Positions 1,642 to 7,865 of a DNA stretch of 10,410 bases are shown piece by piece; position 1 is the first letter of the stretch; every line of letters begins with the position of its first letter. The stretch comes from Elusimicrobia bacterium RIFCSPLOWO2_01_FULL_54_10 (GTDB taxonomy: Bacteria; Elusimicrobiota; Elusimicrobia; 2-02-FULL-39-32). The DNA is taken from positions 846 through 11,255 of the forward strand of contig MGUQ01000026.1 in the NCBI GenBank assembly GCA_001799975.1, in the 5' to 3' direction. The notes beneath the pieces were generated by a model, which saw only the letters and a program-made list of their open reading frames with translations, was not told where the DNA came from and made no database searches. The position numbers and the translations under genes are program-made.

Positions 1642-2039
1642 GTTTTTCTTCGTCTCAATTTAAGAAATTCGCCGTTGCCGCGGCCATGAGCGCCGATTCC
1701 AAACAGGGCGCCGAAATCTCCGTTCTTGACATCCGCAAAGCTCCGGGCGGGCCTTCGGACTACATGCTCCTGATGAGCGCGAACTCCCATGTCCACATGA
1801 AAACCTTGCGGGATTCCATTGAAGAGTCTTTGGAAGGATACGGCCTGACTTCCATTCACCGGGACGGTTCGCGCGACAGCAAATGGATGGCTCTGGATTA
1901 TGGCGGCCTTCTGATCCATATCTTTCTGGAAGAAGTGCGTGATTTTTATTCCCTGGAGAGGCTTTGGCCCGAAGCCAGGACGCTGGCGTGGGAGCCCCAA
2001 AAAACCAAAGTTCCATCCAGAAAGCGGCGCAAATCATGA
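1638..2039 (+). CDS. rsfS: Ribosomal silencing factor RsfS (Iojap/DUF143 family)
   Basis: A 133-residue protein with the RsfS signature in its second half: SKWMALDYGGLLIHIF followed by LEEVRDFYSLERLWPEA. The first half has the matching KQGAEISVLDIRKAPGGPSDYMLLMSA core strand. From family knowledge, RsfS binds ribosomal protein uL14 on the 50S subunit and blocks joining to 30S when nutrients are scarce. The start chosen is TTG at 1638, which overlaps the preceding stop as TTGA and keeps the first helix (SQFKKFAVAAAMSADSK). The alternative ATG at 1686 would remove that helix and is less likely. The tail after the conserved domain is basic (KTKVPSRKRRKS). Its TGA stop overlaps the argS ATG as ATGA. 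Family assignment is firm; the start codon is inferred. Confidence 0.92.
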   Translation: MSFSSSQFKKFAVAAAMSADSKQGAEISVLDIRKAPGGPSDYMLLMSANSHVHMKTLRDSIEESLEGYGLTSIHRDGSRDSKWMALDYGGLLIHIFLEEVRDFYSLERLWPEARTLAWEPQKTKVPSRKRRKS

Positions 2040-3670
2040 TCCGTTCGCGCATCACCCAAATCATCAAAAAAGCCCTGTCCAAACAATATCCGGAGGCCGC
2101 CGCCGCTTCATTTTCCGTGGATGAGCCCGGCACGGGGATTGCTGCGGACGTGTCCACCAACACTGCTCTCGCTCTGACTAAAAAACTTGGAGTTCCTCCC
2201 GCAAAAATAGCCGATGAACTGATTCGGAGCCTTTCCCAGGGCACTGAGAAAGGCATGTTCACCGGACTTGAAACAGCCAGAGGGGGATTTGTTAATTTTG
2301 TGTTGCACGACAATTATTTGCGGGATATCACCACTGAAATTTGTCTGAAAGGACAGTCTCTCGGCCCGGAAGCGCCGGTTGCGCCAGCCAAAGTGATGAT
2401 TGAGTTCGTTTCCGCCAATCCCACCGGGCCGCTCCATATCGGCCACGGACGGGGGGCATCGCTCGGAGATTCACTGGCACGCATATACCGCCAATGCGGC
2501 TATCCGGTGCAGACGGAATACTACGTCAACGATGTGGGCGTGCAGATGCAGATTTTGGCGCAGTCAACTGAACTGCGCAGCCGCGAACTTGAAGGAGAGA
2601 GTGTCAACTTCCCTGAAAATGGATATCAGGGAGCTTACGTCAGCGATATCGCCAAAGAGATGGCCGCGGCGGGAAGGAACGATTTTGACAAGTATCCGAG
2701 AGAATATATTTTAAACTGGATCCGCAAAGACTTGGAAGATTTCGGGGTGCCGTTCGACGCCTGGTTTTCGGAGTCCGAACTTTTTAAGCGCGGGAAAGTG
2801 GAAGAAGTCTTGTCTGCTTTGCGCGCCAAGGGCCTGCTCAAAGAAAAGGACGGCGCCTTGTGGTTCATCTCCCAGGCCGCGGAGGAGGATGCGGAGCTGG
2901 ACAAGGACCGCGTCCTCAAAAAATCCGACGGGCGTTACACCTACTTTGCCTCCGACATCGCTTATCACAAGGATAAATTTGACCGGGGCTTTGGCCTGGC
3001 CATCGACATCTGGGGCCACGACCACCATGGCTATGTGCCCCGCGTGGAGGCCTCCATTTCTGCTCTCGGAATCCCCAAGGAAAAACTCAAGATCCTGCTC
3101 TATCAGCTGGTGTCTTTAAAACGGGACGGAAAAAAAGTTGTGATGTCCACCCGTTCCGGCCAGTTTGTCACTCTCAAAGAAGTGGTGGATGAAGTGGGCC
3201 GGGATGCGGCGAGGTTTTTTTTCGCGCTTCGGAGCCCCAACTCGCAACTGGAATTTGACGTGGACCTGGCCAAGAAGCAGTCCAATGAAAACCCGGTTTA
3301 TTATGTGCAGTATGTGCACGCCCGGATTTGCTCCATTTTCCGGGAAGCCGAAAAGCGGGGGATTAAATATTCCGACCCGGAATTATCAAAGAATACCCGC
3401 CCGCTTGAAAAGGCCGAGAGAGACTTGGTCTTAAAGATGGGATTTTTTACGGATGTTCTGGAGGGATGTCTTCAAATTTCTTCGCCGCATCTGCTGGCGG
3501 TTTACCTGATGGATCTGGCCACGCGGTTTCACAAGTTTTACGACGCCTGCCGGGTGCTGGACGCCGAGCCTGCCGTGATCCAGGAACGCCTGAAAATCCT
3601 CCAGGCCACCCGAAGTGTTGTAAAGCTGGGATTATCCCTGCTCGGAGTCTCCGCGCCGGAGAAGATGTAA
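2036..3670 (+). CDS. argS: Arginyl-tRNA synthetase (class I)
   Basis: 544 residues from the ATG at 2036, close to the usual 550-580. It charges tRNA-Arg with arginine in the cytoplasm. The N-terminal Add-1 domain spans about 1-95. The catalytic domain carries EFVSANPTGPLHIGHGRG at 123-140 with HIGH at 134-137. The second signature is the degenerate VMSTRSG (369-375) in place of KMSKS, a variant I believe is common in bacterial ArgRS. The DALR anticodon-binding domain begins around NPVYYVQYVHAR (419-430) and ends with the typical LLGVSAPEKM. An upstream in-frame TTG at 1964 would add 24 residues inside rsfS and is rejected in favour of the ATGA overlap. The gene appears intact, although foreign-looking DNA starts right after its stop and a diverged copy of its last codons lies 1.37 kb downstream. 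Confidence 0.97.
   Translation: MIRSRITQIIKKALSKQYPEAAAASFSVDEPGTGIAADVSTNTALALTKKLGVPPAKIADELIRSLSQGTEKGMFTGLETARGGFVNFVLHDNYLRDITTEICLKGQSLGPEAPVAPAKVMIEFVSANPTGPLHIGHGRGASLGDSLARIYRQCGYPVQTEYYVNDVGVQMQILAQSTELRSRELEGESVNFPENGYQGAYVSDIAKEMAAAGRNDFDKYPREYILNWIRKDLEDFGVPFDAWFSESELFKRGKVEEVLSALRAKGLLKEKDGALWFISQAAEEDAELDKDRVLKKSDGRYTYFASDIAYHKDKFDRGFGLAIDIWGHDHHGYVPRVEASISALGIPKEKLKILLYQLVSLKRDGKKVVMSTRSGQFVTLKEVVDEVGRDAARFFFALRSPNSQLEFDVDLAKKQSNENPVYYVQYVHARICSIFREAEKRGIKYSDPELSKNTRPLEKAERDLVLKMGFFTDVLEGCLQISSPHLLAVYLMDLATRFHKFYDACRVLDAEPAVIQERLKILQATRSVVKLGLSLLGVSAPEKM
3637..3670 (+). repeat. Copy 1 of argS-end repeat (inside argS)
   Basis: These are the last 34 bases of argS, including the stop. 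They match 5010-5043 without gaps at 26 of 34 positions. The segment contains a short dyad: TCTCCG (3648-3653), loop CGC, CGGAGA (3657-3662). The C at 3649 and G at 3661 pair with each other in this stem. In the downstream copy they are T and A, so the pairing is kept. With two gaps the match extends left to 3621. Confidence 0.7.
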
Positions 3671-3675
3671 ATTCT

Positions 3676-3704
3676 TACTACGAAATAGACTATTTTCTGT
3701 AGTA
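3676..3704 (+). promoter_or_regulatory. Imperfect inverted repeat upstream of the endonuclease gene (possible operator)
   Basis: The left arm TACTAC-GAAATAG (3676-3688) pairs with the right arm CTATTTTC-T-GTAGTA (3690-3704), with a one-base centre and two single-base bulges. It overlaps the predicted -10 and is immediately followed by another small palindrome, AGTATACT (3701-3708). No run of T follows, so it is not a good argS terminator. Its position over the promoter fits an operator, as used for autoregulation in some R-M systems. No separate C-protein gene is present, and the sequence is not a canonical C-box. Confidence 0.4.
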
Positions 3705-3708
3705 TACT
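3703..3708 (+). promoter_or_regulatory. Candidate -10 box (TATACT) for the R-M operon
   Basis: TATACT differs from the TATAAT consensus at one position and lies in the only gap upstream of the endonuclease. A convincing -35 at 16-18 bases is not visible (ACGAAA at 3680-3685 is poor), so an activator or a different sigma factor may be involved. The expected transcription start, around 3713-3716, is only about 5-8 bases before the endonuclease ATG at 3721. That implies a leaderless or nearly leaderless mRNA, consistent with the absence of a Shine-Dalgarno there. Confidence 0.45.
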
Positions 3709-3720
3709 TAACACATATTT

Positions 3721-4314
3721 ATGGCGATTAGAGACATTCCCAAGGCGATTCGGAGTACATACGAAATTCATGAATGGAAACATGCGAGCGCAGTACTTAA
3801 AAATGACTTCCCAAATGAGTGGAATGACATTTTTAAAATTCTCTCAAATTTTTATGTTTACAAGAGTCAAATTCTTGCTCCTGGGGGCGGGATTTCTCCA
3901 ATTTCTAAAGTTTTTAATGATGTATTTTGCTCAAAGGGATGGTGTGAAAAATCCTTTGACACGAAAATTGTGGTTGATGAAACAACCATGGAAAGCCCAA
4001 CACATAAGGTTGATTGCTTCAAAAACGGTATAGCTCTTGAGGTTGAATGGAATAACAAAGACCCTTTTTTTGACAGAGACTTGAATAACTTTAGACTTCT
4101 GTTTGAATTGCGCGCGATTAGCGTGGGAATCATAATTACGAAATCCGATGAGCTTAGTGAGCTCTTTAAAAGTTATGGTACAGAAGTCTGGAGTAAGTAT
4201 GGATGGAGCACGACTTGGATGAAGAAACTACTTCCTAGAATTGAAGGTGGCGGGGGTGGCGGCTGCCCAATTTTGGCATTTGGAATTACAAAAAAACGGT
4301 GTAAGGGGGACTAA
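3721..4314 (+). CDS. Type II restriction endonuclease, BglII/BstYI-like
   Basis: 197 residues, a typical size for this family. The probable active site is D98-X8-E107-V-E109 in HKVDCFKNGIALEVEW. This matches the spacing of the BglII (D84, E93, Q95) and BstYI (D119, E128, Q130) catalytic triads as I recall them, with Glu replacing the third residue Gln. The core continues with NNKDPFFDRDLNNFRLLFEL and a hydrophobic strand VGIIIT (135-140). Near the C-terminus six glycines in a row (176-181) precede CPILAFGI. From family knowledge these enzymes cut GATC-centred palindromes such as AGATCT or RGATCY; the target here is not known. It is followed after 3 bases by an adenine methyltransferase, which supports an R-M role. 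No Shine-Dalgarno precedes the ATG. AT-rich codon use unlike argS points to transfer. Confidence 0.82.
   Translation: MAIRDIPKAIRSTYEIHEWKHASAVLKNDFPNEWNDIFKILSNFYVYKSQILAPGGGISPISKVFNDVFCSKGWCEKSFDTKIVVDETTMESPTHKVDCFKNGIALEVEWNNKDPFFDRDLNNFRLLFELRAISVGIIITKSDELSELFKSYGTEVWSKYGWSTTWMKKLLPRIEGGGGGGCPILAFGITKKRCKGD
4303..4310 (+). promoter_or_regulatory. Shine-Dalgarno of the methyltransferase gene
   Basis: AAGGGGGA lies 7 bases before the ATG at 4318, inside the last codons of the endonuclease gene. The contrast with the missing site in front of the endonuclease suggests that the methyltransferase is translated more efficiently from the same mRNA, which would help protect the host. Confidence 0.6.
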
Positions 4315-4317
4315 AAT

Positions 4318-4998
4318 ATGAGTATTAAGCATGCGCCCGCGTTGTCTGCATCTGAAGACCTCTTAACTTATAAATACGAGAGATTTGCAACTATTCTTGC
4401 CGATCCGCCTTGGCAGTTTTCAAACAAAACCGGGAAAATGGCCCCTGAGCATAAGAGACTTTTGAGATATCAAACAATGAAACTTTCGGAGATAATGGAA
4501 CTTCCGATTCCGCAGCTTGCTCTGCCACAGTGTCATCTTTATTTGTGGGTCCCTAATGCGTTAATTCTCGAAGGTTTGGAAGTCATGAAGAGATGGGGAT
4601 TTACATACAAAACAAATGTTGTTTGGTATAAAATCAGGAAGGATGGTGGGCCTGATGGGAGGGGAGTTGGTTTTTATTTTAGAAATGTTACTGAACTCAT
4701 TCTTTTTGGAACACGGGGATCAATGAGAACACTTGCTCCAGGTAGAAGGCAGGTCAACATTCTTTTGACCAGGAAGAGAGAGCATTCTCGAAAACCAGAT
4801 GAATCATATGACATTATTGAACAATGTAGTCCCGGCCCTTATTTGGAATTATTTGCTAGACATGATCGGAAAGGATGGGCTCAATGGGGAAATGAAATTG
4901 GTAAAAATAAAGTCCATAAACCAATTCAGTTTTCCGTTACTAAGAAGTTGAGGCAGCTTTCCTTCTTAGATGAGAATACCCTTCTCAGATCTCGTTAA
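4318..4998 (+). CDS. MT-A70-family adenine-N6 DNA methyltransferase (R-M partner)
   Basis: A 226-residue S-adenosylmethionine-dependent methyltransferase. The catalytic motif IV is DPPW (29-32, in FATILADPPWQF), followed by YLWVPN (75-80) and NVVWYK (100-105). The MT-A70 hallmark HSRKPDE is at 156-162, and the cofactor-binding strand PGPYLELFAR is at 172-181. The order, catalytic motif first and SAM-binding motif last, is the permuted beta-type arrangement. DPPW indicates adenine N6 as target. Next to a BglII-like endonuclease it is most likely the protective enzyme of a type II system; a phage-type orphan methyltransferase is the alternative but does not explain the neighbour. The gene is AT-rich like its partner. 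Its TAA stop at 4996-4998 coincides with the left limit of the gapped match to the argS end, so the gene finishes right at a junction. Confidence 0.88.
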   Translation: MSIKHAPALSASEDLLTYKYERFATILADPPWQFSNKTGKMAPEHKRLLRYQTMKLSEIMELPIPQLALPQCHLYLWVPNALILEGLEVMKRWGFTYKTNVVWYKIRKDGGPDGRGVGFYFRNVTELILFGTRGSMRTLAPGRRQVNILLTRKREHSRKPDESYDIIEQCSPGPYLELFARHDRKGWAQWGNEIGKNKVHKPIQFSVTKKLRQLSFLDENTLLRSR

Positions 4999-5043
4999 GC
5001 GTGGCTATTCTTGCTGAGAGTTTCCGCACCGGAAAAGACGCAA
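4996..5043 (+). repeat. Copy 2 of argS-end repeat (displaced, decayed argS tail)
   Basis: The segment matches the end of argS (3621-3670): 26 of 34 ungapped identities for 5010-5043, and 36 of 50 columns with two gaps for the whole. Read in the argS phase, 5011-5043 encodes L-L-R-V-S-A-P-E-K-T-Q against L-L-G-V-S-A-P-E-K-M-stop. Five of the eight codon differences are synonymous (CTG/TTG, CTC/CTG, GTC/GTT, GCG/GCA, GAG/GAA). That pattern indicates descent from a coding argS end and argues against chance similarity. The start and stop-type codons have decayed (ATG to ACG, TAA to CAA). The copy keeps the dyad TTTCCG (5021-5026), loop CAC, CGGAAA (5030-5035). Confidence 0.65.
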
Positions 5044-5044: not shown

Positions 5045-6262
5045 CTATTTTGTTTGCTTCATATGGATTTTTAGATATTGAAGATTTTTCCAAACATCCT
5101 CATTAATCTCAAATAATTTCTCATAACTTAGCTTCTTCAAACTCATAAAGTTTTCATATGCCTCTAGATTTTCGTAATTTTTTGCCATTCCATTGATGTG
5201 GTTAATTATTGTATTAGCCGATTCCATACTACTCTGAACTGCCATAATTCCATCCCTCATCGCTTTTCTCTTAATTTGATCCAAAGCTTTAGGAGCATAG
5301 TCATATTTAAAAAGACCGATAAAACTTGAATTATTCCCCTTAAATATAAGTGCATTCGTATGTATATTGGAAGACATTCGAATGTTCCAATCAATTTCGT
5401 TTTCAAAGTTTTCCAGAATTATTAGTGCATTTTCCGTCTTTGATGTGTCAATAGAAAAATGAGAAATCTCGAAATCAATTTGCTTTATTCTATCTCGGAC
5501 CCATTGATGTAGTTGATCATTGCTGTCTCTTGGCTTGGCCATTTGTTTATGATTTTGTTCTAAAGCTAAGGGGTTTTCATCTACAAATGGGAAAATTAAA
5601 ACTCTTGGCACTGCAATTCTGAACCATTGTTTTCGTGTTTCGTATGCAGCGTAAATTCGAGGAAACTGATTGTTATTATTATCTCGCTCCTTTATAATTC
5701 TTCTCCATTTATATTCTTGAGCTTGCAAATACTTGTTATGATCAATTATGCCAATATCTTTAAAATGTACATTTGGACTAATCTTAACCCATTGTTTTTG
5801 GACGTAATCTGAGCCTCTGAAGGGCACGCCACTCAAGAATATGGCTCTGATGTGACTGTAAATATCCATATTTTCTTCTTTCAAGTTTCCGAGGCTTATC
5901 AAAGTAAGGAGGCCCCCCAAGCTATGGGAAACAATATATATATCGTCAAATTGATTTTTTAGTTTAAGATAATTAGAGAAATGATTGGCAATTTCTTCAA
6001 TATTTAAACCCTTTTTGAGAAGGCTAGAATTATAAATAAAAGTAGCTGTGGAGATATTTAAATGCTCTAACTCAACATCCTTAGCCATCAACATAGGCCA
6101 GAATGTACCAGTTTTTGTATTTGTAAAGGCTTTAGTAGCATTACTTCCCAATCCATGAACGAACAGAATAAGAATGTTTCTACTCTTATCCTCGGCTTGA
6201 ACGATATTAACAAAGCAGTTGATTTGAACCATACCTAGCATGAAAACAATTATTTTATTCAC
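5045..6262 (-). CDS. Exported alpha/beta hydrolase (lipase-like), AT-rich
   Basis: 405 residues from a GTG start at 6262. The N-terminus looks like a Sec signal peptide (MNK, hydrophobic stretch to about residue 20, then VQA before E24), so a periplasmic or secreted protein is likely. The oxyanion-loop motif is FVHGLGSN (34-41) and the nucleophile elbow is SHSLGG with Ser114. His238 in NHKQMAKP resembles the catalytic-His motif HxxIxKP of lipase-like hydrolases; an acid such as D228 is a candidate. Residues from about 265 to 405 form a polar extension I do not recognise. Substrate unknown; an ester or lipid is plausible. The GTG overlaps the EamA stop as GTGA with no Shine-Dalgarno, so expression probably depends on coupling. 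Base use is far more AT-rich than the genes upstream, suggesting acquisition. Confidence 0.78.
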   Translation of the reverse strand: MNKIIVFMLGMVQINCFVNIVQAEDKSRNILILFVHGLGSNATKAFTNTKTGTFWPMLMAKDVELEHLNISTATFIYNSSLLKKGLNIEEIANHFSNYLKLKNQFDDIYIVSHSLGGLLTLISLGNLKEENMDIYSHIRAIFLSGVPFRGSDYVQKQWVKISPNVHFKDIGIIDHNKYLQAQEYKWRRIIKERDNNNNQFPRIYAAYETRKQWFRIAVPRVLIFPFVDENPLALEQNHKQMAKPRDSNDQLHQWVRDRIKQIDFEISHFSIDTSKTENALIILENFENEIDWNIRMSSNIHTNALIFKGNNSSFIGLFKYDYAPKALDQIKRKAMRDGIMAVQSSMESANTIINHINGMAKNYENLEAYENFMSLKKLSYEKLFEINEDVWKNLQYLKIHMKQTK

Positions 6263-7134
6263 AATTGTTTCGTAGAGGATGACTTTAAAATTCCTAGAAA
6301 TTCAAGAGTTAATGCAGTGCCGAGGAGGATGACCGCGCCGCCAAGGAGCATCTGCAGAGTGATGGGCTCGCCCAAGAAAATCCTTCCCCATAACACCCCA
6401 AACACAGGAATCAGAAATCCCACCGCGATGGCGCGCGTGGCTCCCCAGCGGGCGAGCAGGCGAAAGAACAGGATAAAGGCCAGTGAGGTTGAAAGCAGGC
6501 CCAGCATCACCACCGCATGCCAGGCGCCCGGGCTTGGAGTCGTTGCTGGATAAACAAAGAACAACAACGGTGCCAGTAAAACGGCGGCACTCGCCAATCC
6601 CCAGGCCGTCAACGGAAGCGGCGGGATGCCCTGCAATTTTTCCTTCGTATAAATGGTCGCAATCCCGTAACAAAACGTGGCTGCAAGACCCGCAACAACC
6701 GCCAGAGCGCCCCCTTCCGGTTTAAACGATATGTTCCCCCAGCTTAAAATGAGAACGCCGCCAAAACCTAAAATGATCCCGATGAGCTGAACCGGGGTTA
6801 GCTTATTTTTAAGCCAAACCCAGCCCACGAGTGCCGTGAACAACGGCGCTGTGGAGTTGATGATGGAGGCAAAACCCGCGGTGACGTGGCGCGTGGTGTA
6901 GGCCAGAAGGCAAAAGGGCAGGGCATAATTGAATACCCCCAGGAAAAATATTTTGCGCAGATTGCCGCGGAGGTCCGCAGTGCCCCTCTGAACCAGCACG
7001 AACGGCAAGAGAAATAGTGAAGCGATGAGGACGCGCACGGCGATGAGGGCGATGGGCCCAAATTCCGGCACGGCCTGGCGCATGAAAAGGAAAGACCCTC
7101 CCCAGAGGGCCGCGATCAGGAAAAAATCAATCAT
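6259..7134 (-). CDS. EamA/DMT-superfamily transporter
   Basis: A hydrophobic protein of 291 residues with about ten membrane segments in two repeated halves, the usual EamA layout. Typical family stretches include ALWGGSFLFMRQAVPEFGPI at the N-terminus, LKNKLTPVQLIGIILGFGGVLIL in the first repeat (the positive end loop before TM5), and FLGEPITLQMLLGGAVILLG at the end of the second. It should act in the inner membrane as a drug/metabolite exporter; the substrate cannot be predicted. The ATG at 7134 is chosen because it overlaps the preceding stop as TGATG; a TTG one codon upstream is possible. The last ten codons or so (ILKSSSTKQL) are AT-rich, which suggests that the original C-terminus was altered when the hydrolase gene arrived. 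It has no obvious functional link to the Tol genes it follows. Confidence 0.88.
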   Translation of the reverse strand: MIDFFLIAALWGGSFLFMRQAVPEFGPIALIAVRVLIASLFLLPFVLVQRGTADLRGNLRKIFFLGVFNYALPFCLLAYTTRHVTAGFASIINSTAPLFTALVGWVWLKNKLTPVQLIGIILGFGGVLILSWGNISFKPEGGALAVVAGLAATFCYGIATIYTKEKLQGIPPLPLTAWGLASAAVLLAPLLFFVYPATTPSPGAWHAVVMLGLLSTSLAFILFFRLLARWGATRAIAVGFLIPVFGVLWGRIFLGEPITLQMLLGGAVILLGTALTLEFLGILKSSSTKQL

Positions 7135-7865
7135 CAATGTTTGACTGTGAAGCGGATGTGGACGCGAAGTGTGGGTTCTTTATAATCCTTTGGAAGCGGG
7201 AGAAACGGCGCGCTGGCATCCACGGCGCGCAGGGCCTGGCGGTCAAACAAGTCGTCCCCAGAGCTTTTAATGACGTCCCGAACGATCATGGACCCGTTCC
7301 GGTCGATCAGGAAGGCCACTTGGACATAAATTCTTTTACTGAACCCTCCGGTCACATTCCAGTTTTGGTCCAATTTCTTTTTGAGCGCATGGACATACCA
7401 TTGATACGGAAAATTCCCCGTGCCTCCCGATCCGCTCCACCCGTCTTTCCCAAATCCCACGCCTATCCCTGAGCCGTCACTGCTTCCGGGGATGCCGGCA
7501 GGGATGACAGATGAGGCCTCACTTTTTCCCGCAGATTCTTTGGGAGCTTTCGGGATGGGGATGGGAATGGCCTTAGCCTCAGAGGCAGTTTTTTTCGCCT
7601 TTTTTTTCTTAATTTTTGATTTCAAAAGAATGTCTTCTTTGGGGTCGGCTTTTACTTCCGCCTTGGCAGGAGTTTGCTGAGCAGGCGCCGGCGCCGTGAG
7701 GGTTGCCGTCATGGCGGCTCCGCCCGAGGCCGGTGCCTCCCCATAGAAATCCACCGCATAATAGGTTTTAGTTTCCTCAAAGGAAAATTGCCTAAGCCCC
7801 AGAGCGCCCAGGATGCAGGAATGCAGAAACGAAGAATATAAAACGAACTTTTGAATGCCCCACAT
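7134..7865 (-). CDS. TolA/TonB-like energy transducer
   Basis: 243 residues with a three-part layout. An N-terminal membrane anchor covers about 6-24. A long periplasmic linker is rich in Ala, Pro, Lys and Gly (about 45-150), with a lysine cluster KSKIKKKKAKK at 82-92 and a glycine-rich end. A TonB C-terminal-type domain covers about 152-243 (YVHALKKKLDQNWNV, IYVQVAFLIDRNGSMIVRDVI, LFDRQALRAVDASAPFLPLPKDYKEPTLRVHIRF). In this setting, directly behind tolQ and tolR and near tolB, it most likely plays the TolA role, carrying proton-motive energy from TolQR to the outer membrane. The linker is shorter than enterobacterial TolA. TonB for nutrient uptake is the alternative. It starts 5 bases after tolR. 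Confidence 0.85.
   Translation of the reverse strand: MWGIQKFVLYSSFLHSCILGALGLRQFSFEETKTYYAVDFYGEAPASGGAAMTATLTAPAPAQQTPAKAEVKADPKEDILLKSKIKKKKAKKTASEAKAIPIPIPKAPKESAGKSEASSVIPAGIPGSSDGSGIGVGFGKDGWSGSGGTGNFPYQWYVHALKKKLDQNWNVTGGFSKRIYVQVAFLIDRNGSMIVRDVIKSSGDDLFDRQALRAVDASAPFLPLPKDYKEPTLRVHIRFTVKH

Follow-up and report, generated by a model that had tools for sequence, protein, structure and literature searches.

A restriction-modification pair between two copies of the argS 3' end in an Elusimicrobia genome, read as an insertion with long target duplication

A predicted type II restriction-modification (R-M) pair lies directly downstream of argS, the gene for arginine--tRNA ligase, in Elusimicrobia bacterium RIFCSPLOWO2_01_FULL_54_10, and is bracketed by the 3' end of argS and a diverged second copy of that end. 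We refer to the entire stretch of DNA analysed, 10,410 nucleotides of contig MGUQ01000026.1 from a 1.89-Mb draft genome (79% complete), as the window. The repeat is present on both sides of the pair, a relative of the same genus has an R-M-free arrangement of the site, and homologous pairs at other genes have a like anatomy. The best reading of the window is an R-M insertion with long target duplication, an event of a known kind; the pair probably entered at the argS end and duplicated its target in one and the same event.

Genes for R-M systems move widely, and the cited literature does not, in our reading, settle how pairs lacking a transposase or integrase enter chromosomes. Pairs homologous to the one described here are found at five conserved genes, in genomes named under different phyla, and insert-free sites are available for four of these genes, so that the mechanism becomes testable by comparison. 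The cases hint at a repeated route by which such pairs could move without breaking host genes.

The argS locus and its repeat

The order of features in the window is argS, the R-M pair, copy B of the argS end, a lipase-like gene and eamA (Table 1). The argS protein ends in GVSAPEKM*, in conformity with the pattern of the ends in 28 relatives. If the duplication is equated with its 34-nt ungapped core, the R-M insert is 1339 bp long, and its right edge lies within 4993-5009. The stop codon of the lipase-like gene is 1 nt past copy B, and its GTG start overlaps the eamA stop (GTGA). Because this low-GC gene separates copy B from eamA, the AT-rich stretch extends to about position 6300.

Table 1. 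Features of the argS locus in window coordinates
Feature	Coordinates	Strand	Evidence
argS (arginine--tRNA ligase), insertion target, open and full length	2036..3670	+	TIGR00456, 425.4 bits, cut-off 261.65 (match scanned as 1964-3670)
Copy A, functional argS 3' end	3620..3670 (ungapped core 3637-3670)	+	Alignment; protein end kept in relatives
Putative inserted R-M unit	3671..5009	+	Absent between argS and eamA in G001; low GC
Restriction endonuclease, BglII family (predicted)	3721..4314	+	PF09195, E 2.8e-45
MT-A70 family methyltransferase, R-M partner (predicted)	4318..4998	+	PF05063, E 1e-31; PADLOC MTase_II, E 6.3e-89
Copy B, probable decayed duplicate of the argS 3' end, stop changed to CAA	4994..5043 (ungapped core 5010-5043)	+	Alignment
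Lipase/esterase-like gene, convergent to argS	5045..6262	-	DUF676, E 0.00062, 19.8 bits, under the Pfam cut-off of 20.3
eamA transporter gene	6259..7137	-	PF00892, E 8.2e-53

The endonuclease domain and the adjacent methyltransferase gene together predict a type II R-M system of the BglII family. As in other systems of this family, the endonuclease matches PF09195 far above the curated cut-off; the window differs from them in that the partner is an MT-A70 enzyme and in that no solved structure was matched by the endonuclease sequence at E 0.001. Solved relatives of the MT-A70 partner include METTL3-type RNA methyltransferases. Aligned with 82 homologues, the endonuclease shows at least 97% identity at residues D86, D98, E107, E109, N112, K113 and D114, and the methyltransferase, aligned with 75 homologues, reaches the same level at D29-P30-P31-W32; we take the acidic residues of the former and the DPPW motif of the latter to be catalytic. 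The endonuclease has homologues in 13 of 72,556 plasmid records and in 5 of 50,697 phage records.

A preliminary description of this DNA had proposed that the last 34 nt of argS recur just past the methyltransferase at 26 ungapped positions, with five of the eight codon changes in the argS phase synonymous and with exactly an endonuclease and a methyltransferase between the copies. All of this is borne out. None of 500 dinucleotide shuffles of both flanks reaches 26 matches (the best 34-mer averages 19.7 and never exceeds 24), contrary to the possibility, raised there as well, that shuffled sequence would do equally well. A recount of the codon changes agrees, the three that are not synonymous being G to R, M to T and stop to Q, and Pfam identifies the two genes between the copies (PF09195 and PF05063). 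Transitions account for seven of the eight differences.

Allowing one gap extends the repeat from the core to 3620-3670 and 4994-5043, and the gapped score is reached in 2 of 2000 shuffles. Within the window, on both strands, neither 34-mer has any further match of at least 21 positions apart from the other copy. When the comparison is anchored on gene ends, none of 4614 cross-locus nulls, built from the right flanks of other loci, reaches the score of the window. The repeat at the argS end is confirmed as real and beyond chance.

Each copy also contains two inverted 6-bp arms separated by 3 nt (TCTCCG/CGGAGA at 3648-3662 and TTTCCG/CGGAAA at 5021-5035), which a paired change preserves from one copy to the other, possibly by chance.

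The idea that copy B is a piece of the mobile R-M unit itself was ruled out, since copy B is absent beside homologous units: the sequence following their methyltransferase genes scores at most 12, against 50 for the window's own. At no more than three mismatches, the 22-nt core of copy B is matched once in the draft genome that contains it and in none of 20 relatives.

The surroundings of argS in relatives lacking the R-M pair supply an unoccupied counterpart. In G001, of the same genus, argS is followed directly by a convergent eamA, with neither R-M genes nor a lipase-like gene between them, and the two genes overlap by about 36 nt (counted by eye on the sequence). In G006, of the same family, a tonB-like gene comes after argS. 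A second genome of the same genus, G002, was left out: its argS was not found and its eamA is cut at a contig end. A search for other R-M insertions after argS, covering 50 of 51 listed downstream ORFs in 28 relatives with Pfam and PADLOC at E 1e-5, recognised none, the PADLOC matches there being to candidate-system models. Among the same 50 ORFs (L003-L031), the toxin-antitoxin-like families PIN, HepT-like and nucleotidyltransferase have one match each.

Homologous pairs at other conserved genes

A scan of genome contigs for the endonuclease gave 152 confirmed stretches, from which 80 loci were kept; 79 of 83 loci, including the window and two loci from relatives, were long enough to be tested for repeats. 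Two of the loci, L033 (G032, same class) and L038 (Candidatus Obscuribacterium magneticum, Elusimicrobiota), have identical printed flanks and very probably represent a single locus that entered the count two times.

Bracketing repeats are rare, being found within 400 bp at 4 of the 79 testable loci (the window included) and at one more locus, L084, further out. At L041 a direct repeat of 47/50 nt has the 3' end of hypE as its left copy, at L073 one of 54/55 nt has the 3' end of dnaE, and at L034 a perfect 17/17-nt repeat corresponds to the overlap of pheS and pheT. L084, tested with 1500-bp flanks, has a repeat of 73 columns at a tRNA-Ser(tga) gene that extends about 50 nt past the gene, and ARAGORN calls only the left copy as a tRNA. 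The names hypE, dnaE, pheS, pheT, epimerase and VOC were presumed by us from the protein sequences. Each of the five R-M pairs is located downstream of its target gene and shares its orientation. Repeat lengths span 17 to about 73 bp, and the inserts of the four protein-gene cases are 1332-1418 bp long and contain little besides R and M.

With 400-bp flanks, the score of L073 and that of L041 are each reached by 0 of 2208 control placements and that of L034 by 4. The controls with 1500-bp flanks are noisier: out of 2096, 13 score as high as L084, 13 as high as L073 and 14 as high as L041. A test restricted to gene ends is sharper. Of the 45 ORF ends located at most 200 bp upstream of R-M units, 3 are duplicated beyond the unit at a score of at least 20, compared with none of 946 controls, which were other ORF ends of the same loci in the same geometry (Fisher P 9e-5). 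The threshold of 20 was chosen with the window's score of 21 known, and the top controls, two in number, stand at 19. Omission of the window, which prompted the test, leaves 2 of 44 against 0 of 946 (P 0.002).

Several candidates were set aside. The 48-bp repeat at L061 does not qualify as a gene-end case, as it is an internal piece of a gene and lies 647 bp before the unit; at L042 a long repeat is more than 500 bp off on both sides, and its score is reached by 10 of 2096 controls; and L074, L093 and L097 score 13 in the anchored test, inside the null (P 0.014 each). The L061 piece, presumably from a ribonucleotide-reductase-like gene, lies at 5279-5326 and is repeated just past the R-M pair at 7236-7280.

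Thirteen further PF09195 loci, drawn from 398 genomes of the phylum of L073 and 294 of the window's phylum, showed no bracketing repeat of 17 or more, the highest value being 15, in a cruder fixed-frame test that fits L148 badly. These are what remains of 15 loci once the window and G048 are subtracted, and five of them (L151 and L154-L157) have no tblastn match to the window's endonuclease.

Together with argS in G001, insert-free sites are known in relatives for four of the five target genes. In G069 and G068, hypE is closely followed by the convergent epimerase-like gene that in L041 is located past the R-M insert. The DNA downstream of dnaE in G745 is colinear with the DNA that follows the right copy in L073. 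Within the genus of G048, pheT was matched in 18 of 19 genomes, and 12 of these loci were retrieved. The exact pheS/pheT overlap is present twice in G048, with pheS retaining its stop and pheT its start, and 10 of the remaining 11 loci carry one intact 17-nt overlap (17 genomes matched besides G048). The eleventh, in G054, carries a DpnI-family gene between pheS and pheT (L164, 499-1275; PF06044, E 5.2e-60); there the pheS end and the pheT start agree at 12 of 17 positions (our own count), the overlap being present twice in diverged form. One and the same pheS/pheT junction is accordingly occupied by a BglII-type pair in G048 and by a DpnI-family gene in G054, of the same genus.

Origin of the two copies

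On the reading that we favour, an integrase-free type II R-M pair would have inserted directly past the argS stop codon, with duplication of some 34-51 bp at the 3' end of the gene. Of the two copies, the upstream one would have stayed with argS under selection, and the downstream one, lying beside the old downstream DNA, would have been free to decay. Insertion and duplication would have been a single event, in which staggered ends were joined illegitimately or in a repair-type reaction, and the survival of such events would be accounted for by a duplicated junction that spares both neighbouring genes. An insertion into the argS 3' end had already been proposed in the preliminary description, and it gains support from the R-M-free arrangement in G001 and from the similar cases at other genes. 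Given that the argS copies differ at 8 of 34 positions, a single event is neither proven nor dated.

The argS ends of relatives indicate which copy is native. In 28 relatives (the fetched loci that reach the end, out of 57 genomes with a match), the G near the end is kept in all 28 and the final M in 24; copy B has R, T and Q in place of the near-invariant G, M and stop. At the five synonymous differences, G001 carries the base of copy A in four and that of copy B in one. Copy B is nearest to the argS end of its own genome (26/34) and matches none of the 28 relatives' ends at more than 24 positions. The direction of this evidence favours copy A as the native end and copy B as the decayed one.

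The strongest competitor, which we nevertheless hold to be unlikely, is that the R-M pair arrived together with a foreign argS 3' end, so that copy A would be imported and copy B would be the old native end. This would take homologous recombination inside argS at one end of the insert and an illegitimate join at the other. In its favour, the insert starts at the stop codon, the point at which between-species homology would run out. The agreement of copy A with G001 at four of the five synonymous differences speaks against it. The synonymous share of 5/8 compares with a mean of 1.7 if all change were neutral in copy B (P 0.014) and with a mean of 2.5 if the target was duplicated and copy A constrained (P 0.07). 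This excess fits pure decay poorly and target duplication marginally, and replacement of the argS tail therefore retains some weight.

The comparisons at hypE and dnaE bear on the same choice. In L041, where two synonymous differences separate the hypE copies, most relatives have the states of the right copy and not those of the left (by eye), which would suit replacement of the tail, but the two copies also share two synonymous states without parallel in the nine nearest relatives read, which tells against it. More distant relatives carry one or other of these two states, and over the last 50 nt of hypE the copies are no closer to each other (46 positions) than each is to the nearest relative, L124 (46; by eye). 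The near-identity of the dnaE copies of L073 tells against a foreign tail: they match each other at 54 of 55 positions and any of nine relatives at no more than 49 of 55, but the bases common to both copies that differ from G745 occur in G738 (L177). Less cleanly than one might wish, the hypE and dnaE sequences would support an origin of both copies within the same lineage. The preliminary description had left two options open at argS: target duplication fits somewhat better, and a foreign argS end is less likely but keeps weight. Its view that copy B was once a functional argS end is true by descent in either model.

A different reading concerns the extent of the imported DNA. The lipase-like gene (5045-6262) has no match in G001, so that G001 does not show the site exactly as it was before the insertion; no fewer than two events must lie between the arrangements of G001 and the window, in an order that is unproven. 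The R-M pair and the lipase-like gene may have been imported together as a single island with the repeat inside. Against this reading stands the 1-nt distance between copy B and the lipase stop, which resembles an old argS/lipase junction, as if argS and the lipase-like gene had formerly been arranged tail to tail.

We regard it as improbable that target duplication is mimicked by a degenerate integrative element, whose integrase would since have been lost or would have acted in trans. Gene 3' ends are common integrase sites, and integrative elements with attL and attR at such ends restore the gene end on one side and leave a leftover end on the other. The window resembles them in this respect, and the targets found here are 3' ends, one of them of a tRNA gene, with co-orientation in all five cases. 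Unlike such elements, however, the window has no integrase between the copies, and the cases involve five different targets, repeats that vary in length from 17 to about 73 bp, and, for the four protein genes, inserts of 1332-1418 bp that contain little other than R and M. No integrase gene was found between the argS copies, where R and M occupy most of the stretch, and visual inspection of the printed flanks revealed no terminal sequence shared by the inserts.

Chance similarity or an assembly artefact is very improbable: although the window's score in a generic flank-against-flank scan (15.5 with 400-bp flanks) is reached by 27 of 2208 control placements, and with 1500-bp flanks by 171 of 2096, the shuffles (0 of 500) and the gene-end controls (0 of 4614 and 0 of 946) never do as well as the window, and copies matching at 26 of 34 positions would be too different for an assembly duplicate.

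Relation to known insertions and apparent registration at stop codons

Published work describes, for Helicobacter pylori, the insertion of R-M genes with long and variable target duplications (PMC3874152, PMC1643837, PMC3031569, PMC4978471), under the term 'insertion with long target duplication' in two of these sources (PMC3874152, PMC1643837); the term target duplication is absent from a 2025 review (PMC12707154). The window is like the H. pylori case, as described there, in having R-M genes without a known mobile element flanked by direct repeats of the target. It differs from that case in the pair involved (BglII and MT-A70) and in the host, an Elusimicrobiota genome, the pair having homologues in other bacteria. 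The repeats here range from 17 to about 73 bp, and a further possible difference is that the four protein-gene inserts are co-oriented with their targets and start 0-2 nt past the stop codon. R-M insertion with long target duplication was reportedly described by Nobusato et al. in 2000 for H. pylori and by Furuta et al. in 2010.

The duplicated stretch ends past the stop by 0 nt in the window, 1 nt at hypE, 2 nt at dnaE and 0 nt at pheS, and in all four of these protein-gene cases the insert begins 0-2 nt past the stop codon, runs in the direction of the host gene and contains no integrase. This registration is the least explained feature, because the need for an intact upstream gene would by itself let the left copy run on into downstream DNA. 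One tentative generalization, to which we would give little credence at this stage, is that small integrase-free R-M cassettes enter exactly at stop codons, co-directionally, and duplicate a junction that both neighbours need (compare the 17-nt pheS/pheT overlap). Recurrence within one R-M family across bacterial groups, combined with registration at stop codons in four cases, may be new. Should the registration hold in a larger set, a specific mechanism would be indicated, or else strong selection in favour of insertions that preserve the junction.

At two other loci, L087 and L036, homologous R-M pairs seemingly lie within or beside another DNA methyltransferase gene, as judged by eye from the printed flanks.
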